This document shows, piece after piece, positions 20,194 to 62,348 of a stretch of DNA of 64,000 nt. Source of the stretch: Bacillota bacterium. Its GTDB lineage: Bacteria > Bacillota > Negativicutes > Sporomusales > CTSoil-080. Both the position numbers and the translations under genes were made by a program. The notes beneath the pieces are model-generated. The model searched no databases. It was given only the letters and a program-made list of their open reading frames with translations, and had not been told where the DNA came from. Positions within the stretch are counted from its first letter, which is position 1. Every line of letters starts with the position of its first letter. Location: the NCBI GenBank assembly GCA_017889635.1, contig JAGGAC010000006.1, positions 62,001 to 126,000 on the forward strand, in the 5' to 3' direction.

Positions 20194-20230
20194 GTTACTA
20201 TAATAAAGATTTAATTAAATATTGATATTC

Positions 20231-20384
20231 CCTTATCACGAGAGGTCGAGGGACTGGCCCGATGACGCCCGGCAACCGGCATTCATGAATGCAAGGTGCC
20301 AATTCCAGCAGGAGCAATCCTGATAGATGAGAAGGAAGGTAATAGAATTTACAACTCCTTTTTTCGAAAGGAGTTTCTTTTTTT
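20231..20384 (+). ncRNA. SAM-I (S-box) riboswitch with terminator
   Basis: Matches the S-box consensus: TATCACGAGAGGT, GAGGGACTGGCCCGATGA, CCCGGCAACC, AGGTGCCAATTCC, then a closing GATAGATGAGAAGG. The expression platform is a terminator, AACTCCTTT (20353-20361) with AAAGGAGTT (20367-20375) and TCTTTTTTT. With S-adenosylmethionine bound, transcription of the downstream methionine genes should stop. It sits 80 bp before metX. Confidence 0.96.
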
Positions 20385-20463: not shown

Positions 20464-21669
20464 ATGGAACTGCAATATCCAAAAACATTTTTTCCCGGAG
20501 TTAACTTCCGGTCGTACTTAAAGTTTGCTCAAGTGGCAAATTACAAAAAGCCGCTCAGGTTGATTCATGGCGGGAGACTAACTGAGGTTATAGTAGCGTA
20601 TGAAACTTATGGTACTCTTTCGCCGCACAGGGACAATGCTATTTTGGTAACCCATGCTCTAACTGGGGATAGTCATGCTGCTGCCCACAATGACCAGGAT
20701 GAGGCTGGGTGGTGGGAGTTGTTGGTAGGACCGGGTCGACCGCTTGATACCAACAAGTATTATATTATTTGTGCTAACGTTTTAGGTGGCTGCCAGGGAA
20801 CTACAGGTCCGGCTTCACCGGATCCGGAGGACAATCAGCCTTATTGTATGCGTTTCCCTAAGGTGACAGTGAGGGATATGGTCAATGTTCAAAAACTGTT
20901 ACTGGAACATCTGGAAATCAACCATTTAGTACTGGTGATCGGCGGTTCGATGGGGGGAATGCAGGCCTTGGAATGGGCGGTGACTTACCCCGGCTTTGTT
21001 GATTCGGTTGCTGCTATTGCTGCGCCAGGGTATGCTTCAGCGCAGAGTATTGCCTATAATAAAGTTGGGCGGCAGGCGGTAATGACGGATGTCGATTGGC
21101 AAGACGGTAATTATTATGGCGGAAAAGGTCCGGTTCAAGGGTTGGCGTTGGCCAGGGCGCTAGGGATGATAACTTATCAGAGCGAGCAGTCGATGACCAA
21201 TAAGTTTAACCGCCGGACAAGGAACGGTCAGTTTGAGGTGGAGAATTATCTTGATTATCAGGGGAAGTGCTTAGCAGAGCGGTTTGATGCCAATTCATAT
21301 TTGTATTTATTGCAAGCACTTGATTTTCATGATTTGGGGTATGGGTATGCAAGCTATAAAGCGGCGCTGGCTCGCATTGAAGCCAAGGTTTTGGTGGTGG
21401 GGGTAAGCTCAGATATATTATATCCGGCCCATCAGCAGCGGGAGTTGGCTGAAGCGATGAAAAGCGTCGGAGTGCGGGCTGAGTATGCTGAAGTTAATAG
21501 TCCACATGGCCATGATGGCTTTTTGATTGACTTTGATCTTCTGAGGCCTATTCTTAGTGATTTTATTAATAGTGTGACTCCGTCTGGACTTCCGTGGGGT
21601 CCTTCGTCGTTTCGTGCTATCAGAATGGCATACTTTGGCGCTCGATTAGTGCCGGAAAGCTATCCATGA
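20464..21669 (+). CDS. metX: homoserine O-acetyltransferase
   Basis: Alpha/beta-hydrolase enzyme (401 aa) that acetylates homoserine from acetyl-CoA, the first committed step of methionine synthesis by direct sulfhydrylation. Typical features: N-terminal VAYETYGTLS, THALTGDSHAA, NVLGGCQGTTGP, the nucleophile elbow GGSMGGMQALEWA (Ser162) and the C-terminal Asp/His region with HGHDGFLIDF. GGGGTGAG lies 6 nt before ATG 20464. MetX enzymes may use succinyl-CoA instead; this cannot be judged here. Controlled by the SAM riboswitch upstream and likely co-transcribed with the sulfhydrylase 75 bp downstream. Confidence 0.95.
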   Translation: MELQYPKTFFPGVNFRSYLKFAQVANYKKPLRLIHGGRLTEVIVAYETYGTLSPHRDNAILVTHALTGDSHAAAHNDQDEAGWWELLVGPGRPLDTNKYYIICANVLGGCQGTTGPASPDPEDNQPYCMRFPKVTVRDMVNVQKLLLEHLEINHLVLVIGGSMGGMQALEWAVTYPGFVDSVAAIAAPGYASAQSIAYNKVGRQAVMTDVDWQDGNYYGGKGPVQGLALARALGMITYQSEQSMTNKFNRRTRNGQFEVENYLDYQGKCLAERFDANSYLYLLQALDFHDLGYGYASYKAALARIEAKVLVVGVSSDILYPAHQQRELAEAMKSVGVRAEYAEVNSPHGHDGFLIDFDLLRPILSDFINSVTPSGLPWGPSSFRAIRMAYFGARLVPESYP

Positions 21670-29586: not shown

Positions 29587-29970
29587 TGGTATAAAGCAAC
29601 TATGAAGTTTTTTGCAGCTGAAAAGCAGGAATTTTTGCCAATTGGTTAGAATATATAATCGTTTGGCATAAGGTGTATGCTGAGTACTGCGTGGCTAAAA
29701 TGCCATTGTCCTAAAAGTTCCAGCTGTGCGTATGTTTGAGATGACTCGGCTACTGGAAAATACGCTGTTTAAGCTGTTGATCTGCCGTAATAGCTATCGC
29801 GTTATCAGGCTTGCACCTGGGGTTTATTTTGCGTGGGCGAAGTAAACCGGGTGCATTTTATTTTGTTATTTACGTAGCGTTGGCTGCGGGAGTAAAGTTG
29901 GGCATTATATTTATTATAGGAAATACTTCAGACGTTATGAGACTTGAAGAGATACTTTTGGAGGTGCGAT
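29587..29970 (+). other. 384 bp gap before mmdA with a terminator-like hairpin
   Basis: No convincing gene. TGCACC at 29812 and GGTGCA at 29851-29856 close a hairpin with inner pairs GGTTTA/TAAACC, followed by TTTTATTTTG (to 29866), 105 bp before mmdA. It may end the rex transcript or act as an attenuator in the mmdA leader. The 200 nt before it match no riboswitch class I know. Confidence 0.5.
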
Positions 29971-31500
29971 ATGGCTACTGTCCAGGAAAAAATTGATGAT
30001 TTAGCTGAGAAACTGGAAAAGGTAAAGTTTGGCGGAGGAGAAAAAAAGATTGAGAAGCAGCATGCCAGCGGAAAGCTGACTGCTCGCGAGCGGATTAATT
30101 TACTATTGGATCCTGGTTCTTTTGTGGAAATTGATCAGTTCGTGCATCACCGGTGCTCGAATTTTGGTATGGAAAAAGTAGAGGCGCCTTGCGAAGGTGT
30201 GGTAACAGGGTATGGTGCAGTAGATGGCCGCTTGGTATATGTTTATGCCCAAGACTTCACTGTTGTTGGCGGATCGCTGGGCGAGATGCATGCAGCGAAA
30301 ATTGTAAAGGTTCAGGATATGGCGCTTAAGATGGGAGCACCGATTATTGGTCTTAACGATTCAGGCGGAGCTCGTATTCAGGAAGGAATTGATGCTTTAG
30401 CTGGTTTTGGCAATATATTTCTTAGGAATACAATGGCTTCAGGGGTTATTCCACAGATTTCAGTGATTATGGGACCTTGTGCTGGCGGTGCGGTATATTC
30501 ACCGGCGATTACTGATTTTATTTTTATGGTGAAAAATACCAGCCAAATGTTTATTACTGGTCCACAGGTTATTAAGTCAGTTACGGCGGAAGAGGTTACC
30601 TCTGAAGCGCTTGGTGGCGCGATGACTCATAATAGCGTGTCTGGTGTAGCTCATTTTGCAGCAGAAACTGACGAGGAATGTATGCAGCAAGTGCGCTATC
30701 TTTTGAGTTTTCTGCCAAGCAACAATTTGGAAGAGGCACCGGTTGTCGATACTGGTGATAATCCTAATCGTACTGATCCGGGACTGGCAAGTCTTATGCC
30801 GGATAATCCTAATCAGCCATACAATATCAAAGATGTGATTGCTTCAATTGTTGACCGGGGAGAATATTATGAGGTTTTGCCACATTATGCGCAAAATATT
30901 GTGACCTGTTTTGCCAGGTTTGATGGTCAGACGGCTGGGATAATTGCCAGTCAGCCAGCAATTATGGCCGGATGTCTGGATATAAATGCTTCTGATAAGG
31001 CAGCTAGATTTATTCGGTTCTGTGATTCTTTCAATATTCCATTGGTGACACTGGTCGATGTACCTGGCTTTTTGCCTGGGACGGATCAGGAGTACGGCGG
31101 GATTATCCGTCACGGAGCGAAGATGCTTTATGCTTATTCTGAAGCAACGGTGCCAAAGGTGACACTGATTACTCGTAAAGCCTACGGTGGAGCTTATATT
31201 GCTATGTGTTCTAAGCATCTCGGCGGTGATCAGGTGTTTGCGTGGCCATCGGCCGAAATTGCAGTTATGGGTCCGGCTGGTGCGGCGAATATAATTTTTC
31301 GTGGTGATGCGGATGCAGAAGAAAAAACAGCCCAATATGTTGAGGAGTTTGCTACTCCGTACAAGGCTGCTGAACGAGGTTACGTCGACCAAATAATTGA
31401 GCCAAGTGAAACTAGACCGAGGATTATTACGGCTCTTAATATGCTTCAAACCAAGCGGGAAACGCGTCCGGCAAAAAAACACGGCAATATTCCGCTGTAG
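29971..31500 (+). CDS. mmdA: biotin-dependent decarboxylase/carboxylase carboxyltransferase subunit, MmdA-like
   Basis: 509 aa carboxyltransferase (N and C crotonase-like halves). It moves carboxyl between an acyl-CoA (methylmalonyl-/propionyl-CoA most likely) and biotin. Features: [20 protein letters not shown], the oxyanion-hole glycines in [15 protein letters not shown] and [13 protein letters not shown], and in the second half [25 protein letters not shown] and [13 protein letters not shown]. Start ATG 29971 follows TGGAGGTGCG. With the small subunit and biotin protein downstream it resembles the Veillonella methylmalonyl-CoA decarboxylase operon, a sodium pump that ends the succinate-propionate route. 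Substrate choice is inferred; a propionyl-CoA carboxylase or transcarboxylase role is possible. Confidence 0.92.
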
Positions 31501-31526
31501 TCAGCCTATTTGAAAGGGGAATGACG

Positions 31527-31790
31527 ATGGGGTTTTCTGATTCTCGGCCTGGTGCAGGTAAAAAAAATATCGGAATGGGAGCTTCTGGCCTTCGGCCTGA
31601 GGTGATGGCTGCTATTAGCGCTAGTTTGAATGTGGCGATGGGAGGGGACAGCGCCGAGATGGTAGCGGCTGTCAGTGCCGCAATTATTCATGCAGTAGGC
31701 GGTGGTAAGGCGGTTCGGTTTAAGAAATCTGGCAATGCCTGGGCCGCTTTTGGTCGGCAGAAAATAATGGATAGTCGCCAAATGCTTTAG
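31527..31790 (+). CDS. small soluble subunit resembling MmdE/OadG C-terminal region
   Basis: 87 aa, placed between the carboxyltransferase and biotin carrier genes. It has no membrane helix, unlike OadG/MmdD. Residues about 23-87 (RPEVMAAISASLNVAMGG, EMVAAVSAAIIHAVGGG, then KSGNAWAAFGRQKIM) resemble the tail shared by the delta and epsilon subunits of Veillonella methylmalonyl-CoA decarboxylase, which helps assemble the complex. A duplicated MxAAxSA motif is visible. Start ATG 31527 is 7 nt after AAAGGGG; ATG 31521 is too close. The role as assembly subunit is inferred from position and weak similarity. Confidence 0.7.
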   Translation: MGFSDSRPGAGKKNIGMGASGLRPEVMAAISASLNVAMGGDSAEMVAAVSAAIIHAVGGGKAVRFKKSGNAWAAFGRQKIMDSRQML

Positions 31791-31819
31791 CATAATGAGT
31801 GAAAACGGAGGTTGTTGAA

Positions 31820-32224
31820 ATGAGAAGATTTAAAGTCACGGTGAATGGCATTGCTTATAATGTTGAGGTGGAAGAGGAAGGGGCGACTGCCTCGGTCGCT
31901 CCAGCGCCAATTGTCAGGGTACCGGTGACGCCGCAACAGCCGGTATTTTCGGCTTCGGCACCGCCGGCGTCTGCACCGGCTGCTCCACCGATAGCGGTTG
32001 CTGAGGGAGATACGCCGGTTGCTTCACCAATGCCTGGAAAGGTTATCAAGGTGATAGCTAAGGCCGGAGATAAGGTAAATAAAGGTGATGTTCTGATGAT
32101 TCTCGAGGCGATGAAGATGCAAAACGAGATCAGCGCTCCGGTAGGAGGAACATTAAAATCGGTAAATGTCGACGCTGGACAGAGCGTAAAGCCTGGTGAA
32201 GTGATGGCTGTTATTACTGCTTGA
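31820..32224 (+). CDS. mmdC: biotin carboxyl carrier protein of the decarboxylase (MmdC-like)
   Basis: 134 aa biotin acceptor. It starts MRRFKVTVNGIAYNVEVEEE, has a flexible Pro/Ala/Val linker (about 28-60) and a biotinyl domain with the biotin lysine Lys99 in EAMKM, followed by NEISAPVGGTLKSVNV. It shuttles carboxybiotin between MmdA and the membrane decarboxylase. GGAGG lies 7 nt before ATG 31820; the frame starting at 31799 has none. The beta subunit (MmdB/OadB, the membrane pump) is not within this window. A hairpin follows the stop. Confidence 0.93.
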   Translation: MRRFKVTVNGIAYNVEVEEEGATASVAPAPIVRVPVTPQQPVFSASAPPASAPAAPPIAVAEGDTPVASPMPGKVIKVIAKAGDKVNKGDVLMILEAMKMQNEISAPVGGTLKSVNVDAGQSVKPGEVMAVITA

Positions 32225-32922: not shown

Positions 32923-34242
32923 ATGACAAGAAGTTTTCGGGGAGGGGTGCATCCCAATGATCGAAAGAACTTTACCGCAGCGAAGGCTATTGAAGTAGCG
33001 CCGCTGCCTGAGAAGGTTGTTATTCCTACTAGGCAGCACATAGGAGCGCCGTGTTCGCCGATTGTTAAAGTTGGTGACTTGGTTAAAAAGGGGCAGGTTA
33101 TTGCTGAAACGCAGGCTTTTGTATCTAGCCCGGTGCATGCGTCAATTTCTGGCAAGGTGGCTGCAATCGCTGAGTATCCGCATCCTGTGTTCGGTTCTTG
33201 CTCAGCTATTATTATCGAAAGCGATGGTAAGGATGAATGGGTGGAAGGACTGCCTATTAAGCGTGAATGGCAGTCGCTGGAATCAGACGAGTTAAAAGAT
33301 GTTATTCGATTGGCTGGTATTGTTGGTATGGGCGGGGCTACTTTTCCAACTCATGTGAAGATGGCTCCACCAAAGGAAAAAAGTATTGACATGTTTATTT
33401 TGAATGGCGCGGAATGTGAACCGTATTTAACTGCCGATCACCGGGTGATGCTTGAGGAAGCTGACCGGGTGGTAACTGGTATGCAGATTGTAATGAAGGC
33501 ATTGGATGTTAAGCAGGGGTATATTGGTATTGAGGAAAACAAACCGGATGCCATTAAGGTAATGCGTGAAGCGGTAAGCGGTACCGCCATAAAAGTTGTA
33601 GCGCTTCAGACTAAATATCCGCAAGGGGCGGAAAAAACACTAATTAAAGTTGTCGCTGACAGGGAAGTCCCTTCAGGCGGTTTGCCAATGGATGTTGGTG
33701 TTGTGGTGCAGAATGTTGGTACGGTGGTGGCTGTGGCAGAGGCAGTAGAGAAGGGATTGCCGCTTATTGAGCGGGTAACTACTGTGACTGGCGGAGCAAT
33801 TGCTGAACCTAAGAATTTGCGGCTTAGAATTGGAACTACGTTTGCTATGGCGATTGAACTATGTGGCGGATTTAAGGAAGAACCGGCTAAGTTGATTATG
33901 GGCGGCCCAATGATGGGGATGGCTCAATGCTCAGTAGATGTTCCAGTAATCAAAGGTACTTCTGGTATTTTGGCCTTAAGCGCGGCTGATATCAATAGTG
34001 GCGATGAACGGCCTTGTATCCGTTGTGGCCGTTGTGTCGAGGCTTGTCCAATGGGGCTTGTGCCCAGTATGCTTAGTATTCTTGGCGAGCGCGGCATGTA
34101 TGAGGCTGCAAAGGAGAAGTATGATCTTTTGGATTGCGTGGAGTGCGGATCCTGTGTGTATACGTGCCCGGCAAAACGTAATATTGTGCATTATGTAAAA
34201 TTAGCAAAAGCACAAAATGCGGCAGCGGCCGCCAAGAAATAG
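32923..34242 (+). CDS. rnfC: Rnf complex subunit RnfC (NADH/ferredoxin-side Fe-S subunit)
   Basis: 439 aa peripheral subunit of the ferredoxin:NAD+ oxidoreductase that pumps Na+ or H+. Flavin/NADH-binding region of the NuoF type: GMGGATFPTHVK and LNGAECEPYLTADHR; a SLBB segment around residues 290-330; two 4Fe-4S motifs CIRCGRCVEACP and CVECGSCVYTCP (about 365-430). GGHFRGGVHPND-type N-terminus is present as FRGGVHPNDRK. It is compact compared with enteric RnfC, as is usual in Firmicutes. AGGGGGG precedes the ATG; rnfD follows after 11 bp. Confidence 0.96.
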   Translation: MTRSFRGGVHPNDRKNFTAAKAIEVAPLPEKVVIPTRQHIGAPCSPIVKVGDLVKKGQVIAETQAFVSSPVHASISGKVAAIAEYPHPVFGSCSAIIIESDGKDEWVEGLPIKREWQSLESDELKDVIRLAGIVGMGGATFPTHVKMAPPKEKSIDMFILNGAECEPYLTADHRVMLEEADRVVTGMQIVMKALDVKQGYIGIEENKPDAIKVMREAVSGTAIKVVALQTKYPQGAEKTLIKVVADREVPSGGLPMDVGVVVQNVGTVVAVAEAVEKGLPLIERVTTVTGGAIAEPKNLRLRIGTTFAMAIELCGGFKEEPAKLIMGGPMMGMAQCSVDVPVIKGTSGILALSAADINSGDERPCIRCGRCVEACPMGLVPSMLSILGERGMYEAAKEKYDLLDCVECGSCVYTCPAKRNIVHYVKLAKAQNAAAAAKK

Positions 34243-34253
34243 GAGGTGGCGGT

Positions 34254-35225
34254 ATGGGGGAAGTAAAAATAGAAGTAGGAAAACTTTCTGTTTCGGCGTC
34301 ACCGCATATCCGGTGTGATGAATCAATTGCCAAGATTATGTGGATGGTCAATCTGGCGCTTGCTCCAGCAGCTCTGTTTTCGATTTACCGATTTGGACTA
34401 TCGGCTTTGTATACGATGGTCATTTGCATTGTAGCTGCGATTGTAACTGAATATGCTATTCAAAAATGGCAGGGAAAGACGATTACCGTTAGTGATGGCA
34501 GTGCATTTTTAACCGGCCTTTTACTGGCAATGAATATCCCGTCTACAGTTCCTTGGTACATGCCGCTCTTTGGCAGTGCTGTAGCAATTGCTGTAGCTAA
34601 GCATACTATGGGCGGGCTTGGATTTAATATTTTCAATCCAGCGCTGGTTGGTCGCGCTGTTCTTTTGGCTTCGTGGCCGGTAGCGATGACAACTTGGCCA
34701 ACGATGGCGAGTAAGCTTGACGGGGTTACTTCGGCAACACCGCTCGGCATTTTAAAACTCCAAGGGTATGCTAAACTTGTTGAGATTTTTGGCGATAAAA
34801 TGACGATGTATAAGTCGTTGTTTTTCGGCAGCCGTAGCGGCAGTATGGGTGAAACCGCGGCTTTGTTATTGATTCTGGGTGGTATTTTCTTAATTTATCG
34901 CGGCTATATCAATTGGCAGGTTCCGGTGGTTATGATTGGCACTGTGGGAGTTCTAACGGCAGTGTTTGGTCAGGATCCAATTATGCATATGATGTCCGGT
35001 GGGTTGATTTTGGGAGCCTTTTTTATGGCTACTGATATGGTTACTATTCCAATTACTGTTAAAGGGCAGATGGTATTTGCGGCTGGAGCCGGTGCGCTTA
35101 CTGTGCTTATCAGGCTGCTTGGAGGGTATCCGGAAGGGGTATGTTACGCTATTTTGTTGATGAACGCGGTTACACCGCTGATTGATCTTTGGCTTAAGCC
35201 CAAAAAATTCGGAGCAAGGAGGTAG
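34254..35225 (+). CDS. rnfD: Rnf complex membrane subunit RnfD
   Basis: 323 aa membrane subunit related to NqrB, with about nine helices. It carries FMN bound covalently to a threonine; the expected site is Thr162 in TSATPLG. Other typical blocks: SPHIRCDESIAKIMW, GGLGFNIFNPALVGRA, HMMSGGLILGAFFMATDMVT. Start ATG 34254 follows AGGAGGTGG. Part of rseC-rnfCDGEAB. Works with RnfG in electron transfer across the membrane. Confidence 0.96.
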   Translation: MGEVKIEVGKLSVSASPHIRCDESIAKIMWMVNLALAPAALFSIYRFGLSALYTMVICIVAAIVTEYAIQKWQGKTITVSDGSAFLTGLLLAMNIPSTVPWYMPLFGSAVAIAVAKHTMGGLGFNIFNPALVGRAVLLASWPVAMTTWPTMASKLDGVTSATPLGILKLQGYAKLVEIFGDKMTMYKSLFFGSRSGSMGETAALLLILGGIFLIYRGYINWQVPVVMIGTVGVLTAVFGQDPIMHMMSGGLILGAFFMATDMVTIPITVKGQMVFAAGAGALTVLIRLLGGYPEGVCYAILLMNAVTPLIDLWLKPKKFGARR

Positions 35226-35230
35226 ATGGC

Positions 35231-35800
35231 ATGGCTCATGATGCTCATAATGAAAAGGACAGCAGCATGTTAAAAATAGCTATGAATCTGGCGATTACAT
35301 GCTTTATTGCCGGGGCTATTATAGCCGGTACCTACTCCTTTACCGAGCCGGTAGCCGTTCAGCAACGCGTAAAAATAAAAAATGACGCGATGAAAGAATT
35401 GGTGAAAGACGCCGATTCGTTTGAAGCTATTCAAGGTAAGTCTGACTGGTACAAGGCGTTAAAAGATGGTAAGGTTATTGCTTATGTTGTTCCTGCTGAG
35501 AGTAAGGGGTATGGTGGCGCAATAAAAATGCTGGCTGCGGTCACTCCTGATGCTAAGGCAATTGATTATAAGGTTTTGTCTCATGCTGAGACGCCAGGTT
35601 TAGGTGATAAGATGAGTGAAGCTAAATTCCGTAATCAATTTGCCGGAAAAGCGACCGATGATATGGTGGTAGTCAAGACTCCTACCGACAAGAATATTCA
35701 GGCGCTGACTGGAGCAACAATTACCTCCCGCGCCGTTACCAAAGGCATCAAAGAAGCAGTTGAAGCGGTAGCCGAGTATACGGCCAGTGTAAAGGAGTGA
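35231..35800 (+). CDS. rnfG: Rnf complex subunit RnfG (covalent-FMN protein)
   Basis: 189 aa subunit with one N-terminal membrane helix (about 15-37) and an extracytoplasmic FMN domain. The flavinylation motif is LTGATITSRAV with Thr165 as the expected FMN-linked residue; ETPGLGDKM is also conserved. Start ATG 35231 lies 8 nt after AAGGAGG. Passes electrons between RnfB/RnfA and RnfD. Flavin transferase ApbE, needed for loading FMN, is not in this window. Confidence 0.95.
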   Translation: MAHDAHNEKDSSMLKIAMNLAITCFIAGAIIAGTYSFTEPVAVQQRVKIKNDAMKELVKDADSFEAIQGKSDWYKALKDGKVIAYVVPAESKGYGGAIKMLAAVTPDAKAIDYKVLSHAETPGLGDKMSEAKFRNQFAGKATDDMVVVKTPTDKNIQALTGATITSRAVTKGIKEAVEAVAEYTASVKE

Positions 35801-35810
35801 GGTAGAGGCT

Positions 35811-36431
35811 ATGAATTATTGGGCAATATTTAAAAAAGGAATTTTTGACCAAAACCCTATATTTCGTCTTGCGCTTAGCCTATGTCCGGCGCTGGCAGTT
35901 ACTTCTAATGTATTTAATGCGCTTGGAATGGGGCTGGCGGTTATGTTTGTTATCACTGCTAATAATGTAGTGGTATCAATTGTCAGACGGTGGGTGAATC
36001 AGAAGGTTCGCGTACCGGTATTTATAACGATTATTGCAACAATTGTTACTTTGACGCAGCTGATGTTGGAAGCATTTTTGCCAGCCTTGTATAAAGAATT
36101 AGGCATTTACCTGGCGCTTATAGTGGTGTTTGCTATTATTTTAGCAAGGGCTGAAGTTTTTGCAATGAAGAATGGTATTGTTCCTTCCTTCTTTGATGGT
36201 TTGGGTATGGGAACCGGGTTTGCATTGGCAATGCTGCTTGTTGGAACTATTCGTGAAGTGTTCGGTACAGGTGCTTTTCTCGGTTTTCCTGTGCTGCCTG
36301 CTTCATATAATGGTCCATTAATCTTGATTTTGGCTCCTGGGGCGTTTATGGTTATTGGACTGTTGATTGGTCTGTTTAATGTAATAGGCGAGTATCGGAG
36401 CAAGCTTGCTGCGCAAAGGGGTGAAGCATAA
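35811..36431 (+). CDS. rnfE: Rnf complex membrane subunit RnfE
   Basis: 206 aa membrane subunit of the RnfA/RnfE (NqrD/NqrE) pair with about six helices. Typical segments: GIFDQNPIFRLALSLCPALA, the buried-cysteine region, EVFAMKNGIVPSFFDGLGMGTGF (partial) and FGTGAFLGFPVLP. In homologues a cysteine in each of A and E binds a 2Fe-2S cluster in the membrane. TGAGGTAGAG precedes ATG 35811. Its stop overlaps the rnfA start by 1 nt (TAATG). Confidence 0.95.
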   Translation: MNYWAIFKKGIFDQNPIFRLALSLCPALAVTSNVFNALGMGLAVMFVITANNVVVSIVRRWVNQKVRVPVFITIIATIVTLTQLMLEAFLPALYKELGIYLALIVVFAIILARAEVFAMKNGIVPSFFDGLGMGTGFALAMLLVGTIREVFGTGAFLGFPVLPASYNGPLILILAPGAFMVIGLLIGLFNVIGEYRSKLAAQRGEA

Positions 36432-37009
36432 TGGAATATTTTACACTGTTTATGGGAGCGGTTATTGTCAATAACTTTGTGTTAACTCGTTTCCTTGGAC
36501 TTTGTATCTTTTTCGGGGTTTCAAAAAGCCTGGATGCTTCAATCGGTATGGGCATGGCGGTGGCGTCAATATTGACTGCTTCTTCTGCACTGGCCTGGGC
36601 GGCTTATAACTTTGTGTTAGTTCCTTTAGAACTCAAGTTTTTAACATTGCCGGTTTTTGTTATTTTAATTGCCGGGTTTGTTCAGTTCCTGGAGATTGTT
36701 ATTAAACGGTTTGCACCAGCTCTGTACAATATGTGGGGAATTTATCTGGTGCTTATTGCTACTAATTGCGTTGTTTTAGGCGTTCCATTGATTAATGTTG
36801 AATCAAATTTTACGTTTATTAAGAGTGTTGTAAATGCATTAGGTTCTGGCGTCGGATTTGCCTTGGCAATTATTCTGATGGCTAGTTTGCGGGAAAAGCT
36901 GCAGTATGCTGACGTTCCTAAGTCGCTGCAAGGCTTAGGTATTGCGTTTGTGATTGCCGGTATGCTGGCATTGTCGTTTTTGGGCTTCTCCGGCATGATT
37001 CCGATGTAA
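36431..37009 (+). CDS. rnfA: Rnf complex membrane subunit RnfA
   Basis: 192 aa, six-helix membrane subunit paralogous to RnfE with inverted topology. Typical: MEYFTLFMGAVIVNNFVLTR, FLGLCIFFGVSKSLD (cysteine for the membrane 2Fe-2S cluster), LEIVIKRFAPALYNMWGIYL (partial) and TNCVVLGVPLINVE. The gene is intact and coupled to rnfE. rnfB, the ferredoxin-facing partner, begins 31 bp later but is disrupted at its 5' end. Confidence 0.96.
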   Translation: MEYFTLFMGAVIVNNFVLTRFLGLCIFFGVSKSLDASIGMGMAVASILTASSALAWAAYNFVLVPLELKFLTLPVFVILIAGFVQFLEIVIKRFAPALYNMWGIYLVLIATNCVVLGVPLINVESNFTFIKSVVNALGSGVGFALAIILMASLREKLQYADVPKSLQGLGIAFVIAGMLALSFLGFSGMIPM

Positions 37010-37040: not shown

Positions 37041-37124
37041 ATGGAAAAAGCATTTTTGATATTGGCTGTATTAACCGGTGTTGGCCTGATCACTGATTCA
37101 TATTGTGGAGGATGCGCTTCCTAA
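37041..37124 (+). pseudogene. rnfB: detached 5' fragment of rnfB
   Basis: AAAGGAGCGG ribosome site, then ATG 37041 opening MEKAFLILAVLTGVGL, the expected start of the RnfB membrane anchor. The frame then diverges and stops at 37122-37124. The body of rnfB continues in the +1 frame from about 37105. About 25 residues that normally finish the anchor and join it to the first Fe-S domain are missing between the two parts. Confidence 0.75.
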
Positions 37125-37857
37125 GGGGCAATGCGGTGCTTGCGGCTATGCCGGCTGTATGGCCTACGCTGAGGCTGTAGTATTGAATGCTGATGTGCCA
37201 CCAACTCTGTGTATACCAGGAAAAGAGCCTGTGGCTAAGGCGGTGGCGGAATTGACGGGCAAGGCTGCTGCGGCGATGGATCCTCGCATTGCCCAGGTAA
37301 AGTGTGCTGGCAGCAATGAAAAAGCGCTAGGTGCTTATAGTTATAACGGTATTGAGGACTGCGTAGCAGCAAATCTCTTGTTCGGTGGGCCGAAGGCATG
37401 TAAACATGGATGTCTTGGGTTGGGAACTTGTGTTAAGAGTTGTCCGTTTGGCGCTTTGAGTATGAGCGAAGCAGGTTTGCCTACAGTTGATCCAGAAAAG
37501 TGTACCGGCTGCGGAGTGTGCGCCGGAGCTTGTCCTAAACAGGTTATTGCAATGTCGCCACTTGATGCGCATGTTCAGGTCAACTGTAATTCTAAGGATA
37601 AAGGACCGGTAGCCCGAAAGGCCTGCTCTGTGGCATGTATTGCATGTACGCTGTGTATGAAAGAGTGTCCGCATGGAGCAATAAAGATGGAGAACAATTT
37701 GGCGACTGTTGATGCTAAGGTGTGTGTTGAAAAGTGTTCTGAGGCCAAGTGCTTGGCCAAGTGCCCGACAAAGGCTATACGTTCGGCGCTAAATGGTATA
37801 TCGGGGAATGAGAATCAGACTACGGCCGCAGCCGCATGTGCGTCTTGTGCGCAGTAA
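37105..37857 (+). CDS. rnfB: Rnf complex Fe-S subunit RnfB, N-terminal anchor lost or frameshifted
   Basis: 250 aa open frame covering the soluble part of RnfB, the subunit that accepts electrons from ferredoxin. It opens EDALPKGQCGACGYAGC (Fe-S domain, residues 2-18), has a distal cysteine in PTLCIPG, then ferredoxin motifs CKHGCLGLGTCVKSCP, CTGCGVCAGACP, CIACTLCMKECP and C-terminal CVEKC...CLAKCP. A GTG at 37105 is the only possible start and has no ribosome site; TGA at 37087-37089 lies in frame upstream. Without the N-terminal helix the protein would not anchor to RnfA/E. Either a true mutation or a sequence/assembly error. Confidence 0.85.
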   Translation: MEDALPKGQCGACGYAGCMAYAEAVVLNADVPPTLCIPGKEPVAKAVAELTGKAAAAMDPRIAQVKCAGSNEKALGAYSYNGIEDCVAANLLFGGPKACKHGCLGLGTCVKSCPFGALSMSEAGLPTVDPEKCTGCGVCAGACPKQVIAMSPLDAHVQVNCNSKDKGPVARKACSVACIACTLCMKECPHGAIKMENNLATVDAKVCVEKCSEAKCLAKCPTKAIRSALNGISGNENQTTAAAACASCAQ

Positions 37858-37900: not shown

Positions 37901-38165
37901 AATATTATATAATGAGGTAATGACGGAGAAAAGTAATTCACTTTTAGGGTTTCAGAGAGTCGGCGGATGGTGTAAAGCCGATAACCAGCAGTGGGTGAAG
38001 ATCACTTCGGAACTGCATTTCTGAATATTAGTAGGAGATGCCGGGTTAGCCACGTTATTCGGCTTAGGTTTGTTTGAACCGAAGAGAGGCATCTTTATGC
38101 AATTAAGGTGGTAACGCGGGTTTATGACTCGTCCTTGAGTATTCAAGGGCGAGTTTTTTATTTAT
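37901..38165 (+). ncRNA. T-box riboswitch controlling threonine dehydratase, isoleucine specifier likely
   Basis: tRNA-sensing leader of about 265 nt. Stem I spans roughly 37930-38030 (AGAGAGTCGGCGGATGG onward). The T-box proper AATTAAGGTGGTAACGCGGG is at 38101-38120, and the terminator ACTCGTCCTTGA (38127-38138) pairs with TTCAAGGGCGAGT (38142-38153 or so), followed by TTTTTA. The specifier-loop side reads GTGAAG-ATC-ACTTC, so ATC (38001-38003, Ile) is the best codon candidate. Uncharged tRNA-Ile would then turn on the next gene. Confidence 0.92.
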
Positions 38166-38171
38166 TAAGGT

Positions 38172-39419
38172 ATGACTAAATTGAAAAATAGCTGTTTCAG
38201 TTTGTCAAATGGCGCTTTGGTATCGATTGAAGATATTTATAGTGCTGAGAAAAGACTGCGATATGTTTTGAAAAAAACCGAAATGATCGAGAGCCCGGTT
38301 TTTAGCAACGAATGCGGCAACCGTGTGTTTATAAAGCCTGAGAATCTTCAGGTTACAGGGGCATTCAAAATTCGTGGAGCATTTAATAAAATAAGCAAAT
38401 TAACTGACATGGAAAAACAGCGTGGCGTTATCGCTTCGTCGGCGGGAAATCATGCACAGGGAGTTGGTTATGCATCCCAACTTTTAGGTGTTAAGGCAAC
38501 GGTGGTTATGCCGGCAACTACGCCAATCATTAAGGTTGAAGCAACGAAAAGCTTTGGTGTACAGGTGGTATTGCATGGCGATAACTATGATGAAGCTTAT
38601 AAGAAGGCTAGAGAGCTTGAAGCAACCAATAACTATGTATTTATTCATCCGTTTGATGATCTTGATGTTATGCTTGGTCAGGGAACCTTGGCGCTAGAGA
38701 TTATTAGAGAACTGGAAGATGTTGATGCAATTTTGGTGCCTATTGGTGGTGGCGGATTAAGCAGCGGGGTAGCATTTGCTGCTAAAATGCTGAAGCCTGA
38801 TATAAAAATAATCGGTGTTGAGCCTGAAGGTGCATGTTGTATAAAGAAGTCGCTGGATAATAATCGGATAACGGAACTTGAGAATGTTGATACTTTTGCT
38901 GATGGCGCTGCCGTGAAAGTGCCAGGTTCGCTTACGTTCGAACTTATCAGAGAGTTTGTTGATGAGGTAGTATCGGTTTCGGATTTTGAGATATTAGAAG
39001 CTATATTGCTCTTGATGGAGAAGCATAAGCTTGTTGCAGAAGGGGCCGGAGCATTGTCTTTAGCTGGTTTGAAAAAATTGCCGGCAGAGAACAAAAAAGT
39101 GGTTTGTTTGGTTAGTGGTGGTAATATTGACATATCAACTATTTCGGCGATAATAAATAAAGCACTGATGTCTAGGGGCAGACTTTTTTGTTTTACAGTT
39201 GATTTACCTGATAAACCGGGCGAGTTGCTTCATGTTGCCAAGATTCTTGCTGATCTAAATGCAAATGTAATAAAACTGGACCATAATCAGTCTAAGGTTA
39301 TGGATAGTTTGAAGCAGGTGCAGCTCGAGGTTACGGTGGAAACTAACGGACATACTCATGTTCAGGAGATAGAAGCGGCATTTCAGCAGCAAGGGATAGA
39401 AATTAGAAAAGTATATTAA
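38172..39419 (+). CDS. ilvA: threonine dehydratase (threonine ammonia-lyase) with ACT domain
   Basis: PLP enzyme (415 aa) converting threonine to 2-oxobutyrate. PLP lysine Lys66 in TGAFKIRGAFNK, substrate loop SSAGNHAQGVGYAS, glycine loop PIGGGGLSSGVAFAA and VSGGNIDISTIS. The C-terminal 75 residues form one ACT domain (FTVDLPDKPGELLHVAKIL), the layout of the so-called catabolic (TdcB-like) Firmicute enzymes rather than the long IlvA with two ACT-like domains. Yet the T-box with an Ile-type specifier indicates a biosynthetic, isoleucine-supply role. AAGG lies close to ATG 38172; weak ribosome site. Confidence 0.93.
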   Translation: MTKLKNSCFSLSNGALVSIEDIYSAEKRLRYVLKKTEMIESPVFSNECGNRVFIKPENLQVTGAFKIRGAFNKISKLTDMEKQRGVIASSAGNHAQGVGYASQLLGVKATVVMPATTPIIKVEATKSFGVQVVLHGDNYDEAYKKARELEATNNYVFIHPFDDLDVMLGQGTLALEIIRELEDVDAILVPIGGGGLSSGVAFAAKMLKPDIKIIGVEPEGACCIKKSLDNNRITELENVDTFADGAAVKVPGSLTFELIREFVDEVVSVSDFEILEAILLLMEKHKLVAEGAGALSLAGLKKLPAENKKVVCLVSGGNIDISTISAIINKALMSRGRLFCFTVDLPDKPGELLHVAKILADLNANVIKLDHNQSKVMDSLKQVQLEVTVETNGHTHVQEIEAAFQQQGIEIRKVY

Positions 39420-61763: not shown

Positions 61764-62348
61764 ATGTGGGTGAAAAAGATGATGAATGGAATATACGCTA
61801 AATTGGGAAAAAGTCTCTCGGCTAAGAGACTAAAACATTCTGTTGGTGTAAGTGAGACAGCAGTAGCTCTTGCTGGGTGTTATGGCGCAGATATAGAAAA
61901 AGCTAGGCTAGCTGGTCTATTACATGACTGTGCTCGGGAAATGACCAGCAACATCCTGTTGAAAATAGCCGAAAACTCTGGTATAGTGTTGAATGATATC
62001 GAAAAATGTCAACCAGTATTATTGCACGCTCCAGTGGGGGCGATTGTTGCCAGACGAGATTATGGGATTGAGGATGATGGAATTTGTCAGGCTATTTCCC
62101 GGCATACTGTTGGCGGTATTGAAATGGAGCTGTTGGATAAGATTATTTTTTTGGCGGACTTTATTGAACCGGGAAGGGATTTTCCGGGAGTTGGTAAACT
62201 AAGAGATTTAGCTTGGAGCGATTTAAGCGACGCTGTATTAGCGGCTTATGACAATACGATATTATACTTGATTTCTAATCAGGGGTTAATTCATCAGGAT
62301 GCATTAAATGGACGTAATGCATTGCTGATGCAAAAAAATATGCAATAA
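61764..62348 (+). CDS. yqeK: YqeK-type HD-domain Ap4A hydrolase
   Basis: About 194 aa HD-domain phosphohydrolase; YqeK enzymes split diadenosine tetraphosphate symmetrically. Metal ligands: His in RLKHSVGVSETAVALAG, His-Asp in ARLAGLLHDCARE, later HAPVGAIVARRDYG and FLADFIEPGRDF. The start is unclear: the best ribosome site (GGAGGAG at about 61732-61738) precedes an out-of-frame ATG (61744) encoding only MAFTN. In-frame choices are ATG 61764, GTG 61770, ATG 61779. Usual neighbour of nadD and rsfS. Confidence 0.9.
   Translation: MWVKKMMNGIYAKLGKSLSAKRLKHSVGVSETAVALAGCYGADIEKARLAGLLHDCAREMTSNILLKIAENSGIVLNDIEKCQPVLLHAPVGAIVARRDYGIEDDGICQAISRHTVGGIEMELLDKIIFLADFIEPGRDFPGVGKLRDLAWSDLSDAVLAAYDNTILYLISNQGLIHQDALNGRNALLMQKNMQ

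Follow-up and report, generated by a model that had tools for sequence, protein, structure and literature searches.

An isolated 53-base break in rnfB in a draft Bacillota genome: possible recent deletion or local assembly error

Introduction

In the structure of the Acetobacterium woodii Rnf complex, a single long helix anchors RnfB. This helix touches RnfG and is connected to a mobile cluster domain, B8, from which electrons go to a cluster that lies in the membrane between RnfA and RnfE (PMC11889175). Here we describe an rnfB gene whose anchor is interrupted in the assembled sequence. The gene lies in a stretch of 64,000 nucleotides (hereafter the window; positions 62,001 to 126,000 of contig JAGGAC010000006.1) from the Bacillota assembly GCA_017889635.1. 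A sequence-only reading of this DNA had offered three explanations for the break, namely a soluble RnfB, an inactive Rnf or an error in the sequence, and these are weighed below against a comparison with related loci.

Results

The rnfB locus as assembled

A good ribosome site, AAAGGAGCGGAGAGGAACAA, lies ahead of the start codon of rnfB (ATG 37041). The N-terminus encoded from this codon is a normal RnfB anchor that agrees with that of a relative (L037, MEKAILIVAVLTGVGLI). The frame from this ATG comprises 27 codons (MEKAFLILAVLTGVGLITDSYCGGCAS), the last ten of which are unrelated to RnfB, and stops at TAA 37122-37124. The body of the gene lies in the +1 frame with respect to the start; this frame is open from 37090, directly after an in-frame TGA at 37087-37089, and remains perfectly open for approximately 255 codons. 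The broken 5' end, which the sequence-only reading had deduced from these two frames and the TGA, is therefore a feature of the assembly. When the body was searched with NCBIfam profiles, TIGR01944 scored 76.5 bits, above its cut-off of 68.7, and NF005503 scored 240.9 bits, narrowly missing a cut-off of 252 that applies to the whole protein. Thus, the poly-ferredoxin body expected of RnfB is present with its cluster-binding cysteines. The N-terminal helix is not continuous with this body: it breaks off after 17 codons and is not in the same frame. The best 19-residue hydropathy at this rnfB is 1.77, versus 2.79 and 2.66 in two relatives.

Table 1. Features of the rnfB locus and its surroundings (positions in the window).
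Feature	Position	Strand	Description and basis
rnfC, rnfD, rnfG, rnfE, rnfA	32923..37009	+	Intact, directly upstream of rnfB; tblastn against four relatives, NCBIfam subfamily models
5' piece of rnfB	37041..37124	+	Native start with the 17 initial codons (MEKAFLILAVLTGVGLI), followed by 10 codons out of frame and TAA
Break point	37091..37092	+	Between ATC codon (37089-37091) and A 37092, with an ambiguity of about one base; codon-level comparison and constant spacing
rnfB body	37093..37857	+	LIHIVEDALPKGQCGACGYAGC onward, 26 cysteines; 66-80% identity to rnfB of relatives, in the same order; NCBIfam RnfB models
SAM riboswitch	20230-20333		Rfam RF00162, 82.9 bits
Methylmalonyl-CoA decarboxylase genes	29944-32224		Alpha subunit; apparent small delta and biotin-carrier genes
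T-box leader	37911-38139		Rfam RF00230, 133.9 bits
Terminator-like hairpin	38126-38155		3' of rnfB
Threonine ammonia-lyase gene	38172-39419		

Size and position of the missing stretch

Comparison with related rnfB genes indicated that rnfB of the window is 53 bases shorter, equivalent to 18 codons less one base, so that the loss of about 25 codons estimated from the sequence alone was too high. In the relatives, 18 codons separate ..GLI from LIHIVED (the sequence over the missing stretch is, for example, MEKAILIVAVLTGVGLIFGFILAYANKKFALEVNPLIHIVEDVLPKGQC). At the same place the window has a single base (A 37092), with the GLI codons ending at 37091 and LIHIVED starting at 37093. Helix and cluster domain are separated by an identical distance in 58 counted loci, drawn from 60 related genomes and a species collection with some genomes in both; one distant locus has two additional residues. 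The 53 missing bases code for the second half of the membrane helix and for the linker to the first iron-sulphur cluster domain and, since their number is not divisible by three, the reading frame is shifted.

The repeat closest to the junction is the five-base CTGAT, which does not fit the break point; slippage between the flanking CTGAT copies was rejected because it would delete 60 bases, in frame. No long repeat prone to collapse in short-read assembly was found at the junction. The same junction was not found in viral contigs, and no near matches to the region were found in plasmids.

Remainder of the operon and neighboring genes

The six Rnf genes (rnfA, B, C, D, E and G) are present in one cluster, with the order rnfCDGEAB common to the window and the relatives. 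For rnfC, D, G, E and A, as well as for the genes on either side of the operon, proteins of the relatives align at full length and in a single frame; rnfB alone is cut. These alignments and the analyses listed in Table 1 uphold the earlier statement that no rnf gene other than rnfB is damaged. The gene for the methylmalonyl-CoA decarboxylase alpha subunit and its apparent small companions lie directly upstream of the rnf operon, and no large membrane beta subunit was seen beside the alpha gene. On the other side, a T-box leader and a terminator-like hairpin precede the threonine ammonia-lyase gene that follows rnfB. Elsewhere in the window, a SAM riboswitch is found upstream of an open frame at 20464.

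Search for another copy of rnfB

No second rnfB was found in the 4.54 Mb assembly. Nor was the missing stretch detected elsewhere, as the N-terminus of a relative, used as query, matched only in two halves at the rnfB locus, and a degenerate pattern built on the conserved ANKKFA stretch had no match in the 4.54 Mb. The same cluster domain occurs at three further sites of this genome, none of which emerged as a close match to RnfB in the search of the related genomes. One of these, from reading of its sequence, is the gamma subunit of acetyl-CoA decarbonylase/synthase and not RnfB. This gamma subunit gene is located on contig C136 (L001), and a frame of similar size with the same cluster domain is located on contig C36 (L002); the catalytic acetyl-CoA synthase families PF03598 and PF19436 had no match in this genome.

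Quality of the assembly and selection on rnfB

The assembly is a draft of 152 contigs. To gauge its noise, 1.22 Mb of a family-level relative was compared with 399 kb of this genome, in which no N was present. A loose first pass returned 114 of 121 orthologue pairs at full length, with a filter that was too loose, as rnfB itself passes it. Under a stricter test of both ends, 104 of 111 pairs were clean and seven were flagged, including rnfB. One of the six others lies at a contig end, as judged from coordinates, and the remaining five were put down, by eye, to over-extended starts or to a diverged query end. Thus, rnfB represents the sole break of its kind in 111 orthologue pairs, and the idea of a generally noisy assembly is unsupported.

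Measured against Lucifera butyrica, the rnfB body of the window has a non-synonymous distance (dN) of 0.173, versus 0.184 and 0.203 for two relatives with an intact gene. By this measure there is no sign of relaxed selection on the body; synonymous sites are saturated, making finer dating impossible. Accordingly, the break either is very recent or never occurred in the cell, and the lack of relaxed selection suits an assembly artefact equally well.

Discussion

The explanation that we tentatively favor, with a probability of a little under one half (about 0.48), is that rnfB of this strain has very recently lost 53 bases through a small deletion, a loss of function that probably inactivates Rnf. 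An error of local assembly or gap closing, by which an intact rnfB lost 53 bases as the draft was built, is a strong competitor, and indeed we rate the two almost level, with the real deletion most likely by a slight lean. Both are ordinary. The division of the draft into 152 contigs, the conservation of rnfB among relatives under purifying selection and with constant spacing, and a body that is perfectly open apart from the break all speak for an error; against it, the 111 pairs contain no further break of this kind, and neither an N nor a repeat that could cause collapse was found. It is because the junction lacks a collapse-prone repeat and the assembly is otherwise clean that we lean toward the deletion. 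Such a deletion, by shifting the frame of rnfB, would create a fresh loss-of-function allele, and the Rnf complex would probably be inactive, since RnfB forms the entry to Rnf on the ferredoxin side. With half of the helix, the linker and also the frame lost, the electron route through RnfB should be abolished. We infer on these grounds, with the reserve expressed above, that the living cell carries the break and that its Rnf is inactive.

It is very unlikely that the strain truly uses an RnfB without the normal anchor, through re-initiation or frameshifting, and retains a working Rnf. Re-initiation at GTG 37105 would yield a soluble RnfB with all of its cysteines, docking on RnfC, and is conceivable in that the GTG is in frame with an intact body and lies inside the upstream open frame. 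Nevertheless, this codon, the only early in-frame start, has no ribosome site and the upstream frame reads past it; furthermore, every relative examined has the anchor, and in A. woodii it is the long helix, in contact with RnfG and connected to the B8 domain, that holds RnfB (PMC11889175). We therefore regard re-initiation as improbable. Among the explanations of the sequence-only reading, the soluble RnfB is the one left unsupported, no relative being alike, whereas an inactive Rnf and a sequence error both stand, as the assembly does contain the break and the break is isolated. Programmed or leaky +1 frameshifting, by which both pieces would be read as one RnfB whose anchor is shortened, appears more improbable still. 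A one-base shift at the break would, from reading of the sequence, join the hydrophobic stretch to the body, but the shift site has no stop codon, a recognised slippery motif is absent by eye, RNA structure around the break is not beyond chance (z = 0.63), and a similar arrangement was found in none of the relatives. A search of the literature for a frameshifted rnfB in acetogens gave at most a loose match.

If the deletion is real, the strain is probably unable to couple ferredoxin oxidation to ion pumping via Rnf and would need other systems, which bears on metabolic models derived from this genome. A strain without Rnf need not be without every such pump, because a complex-I-like or group 4 hydrogenase-like membrane complex is encoded in this genome. 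If the break is instead an error, it serves as a warning to annotators. General knowledge of Rnf is unchanged under either reading.

The locus resembles an ordinary frameshift pseudogene or an assembly indel of a draft genome, in that the gene is open except at a single, isolated indel of a length not divisible by three. Homopolymer errors typically involve one or two bases, unlike the 53 bases affected here. In its N-terminal four-cysteine cluster domain and its poly-ferredoxin part, the gene resembles RnfB of the Na+-translocating ferredoxin:NAD+ oxidoreductases of A. woodii (9ERI chain B) and Clostridium tetanomorphum (7ZC6 chain B), but unlike both it is missing the linker together with the second half of the helix, and its start and body lie in different frames.
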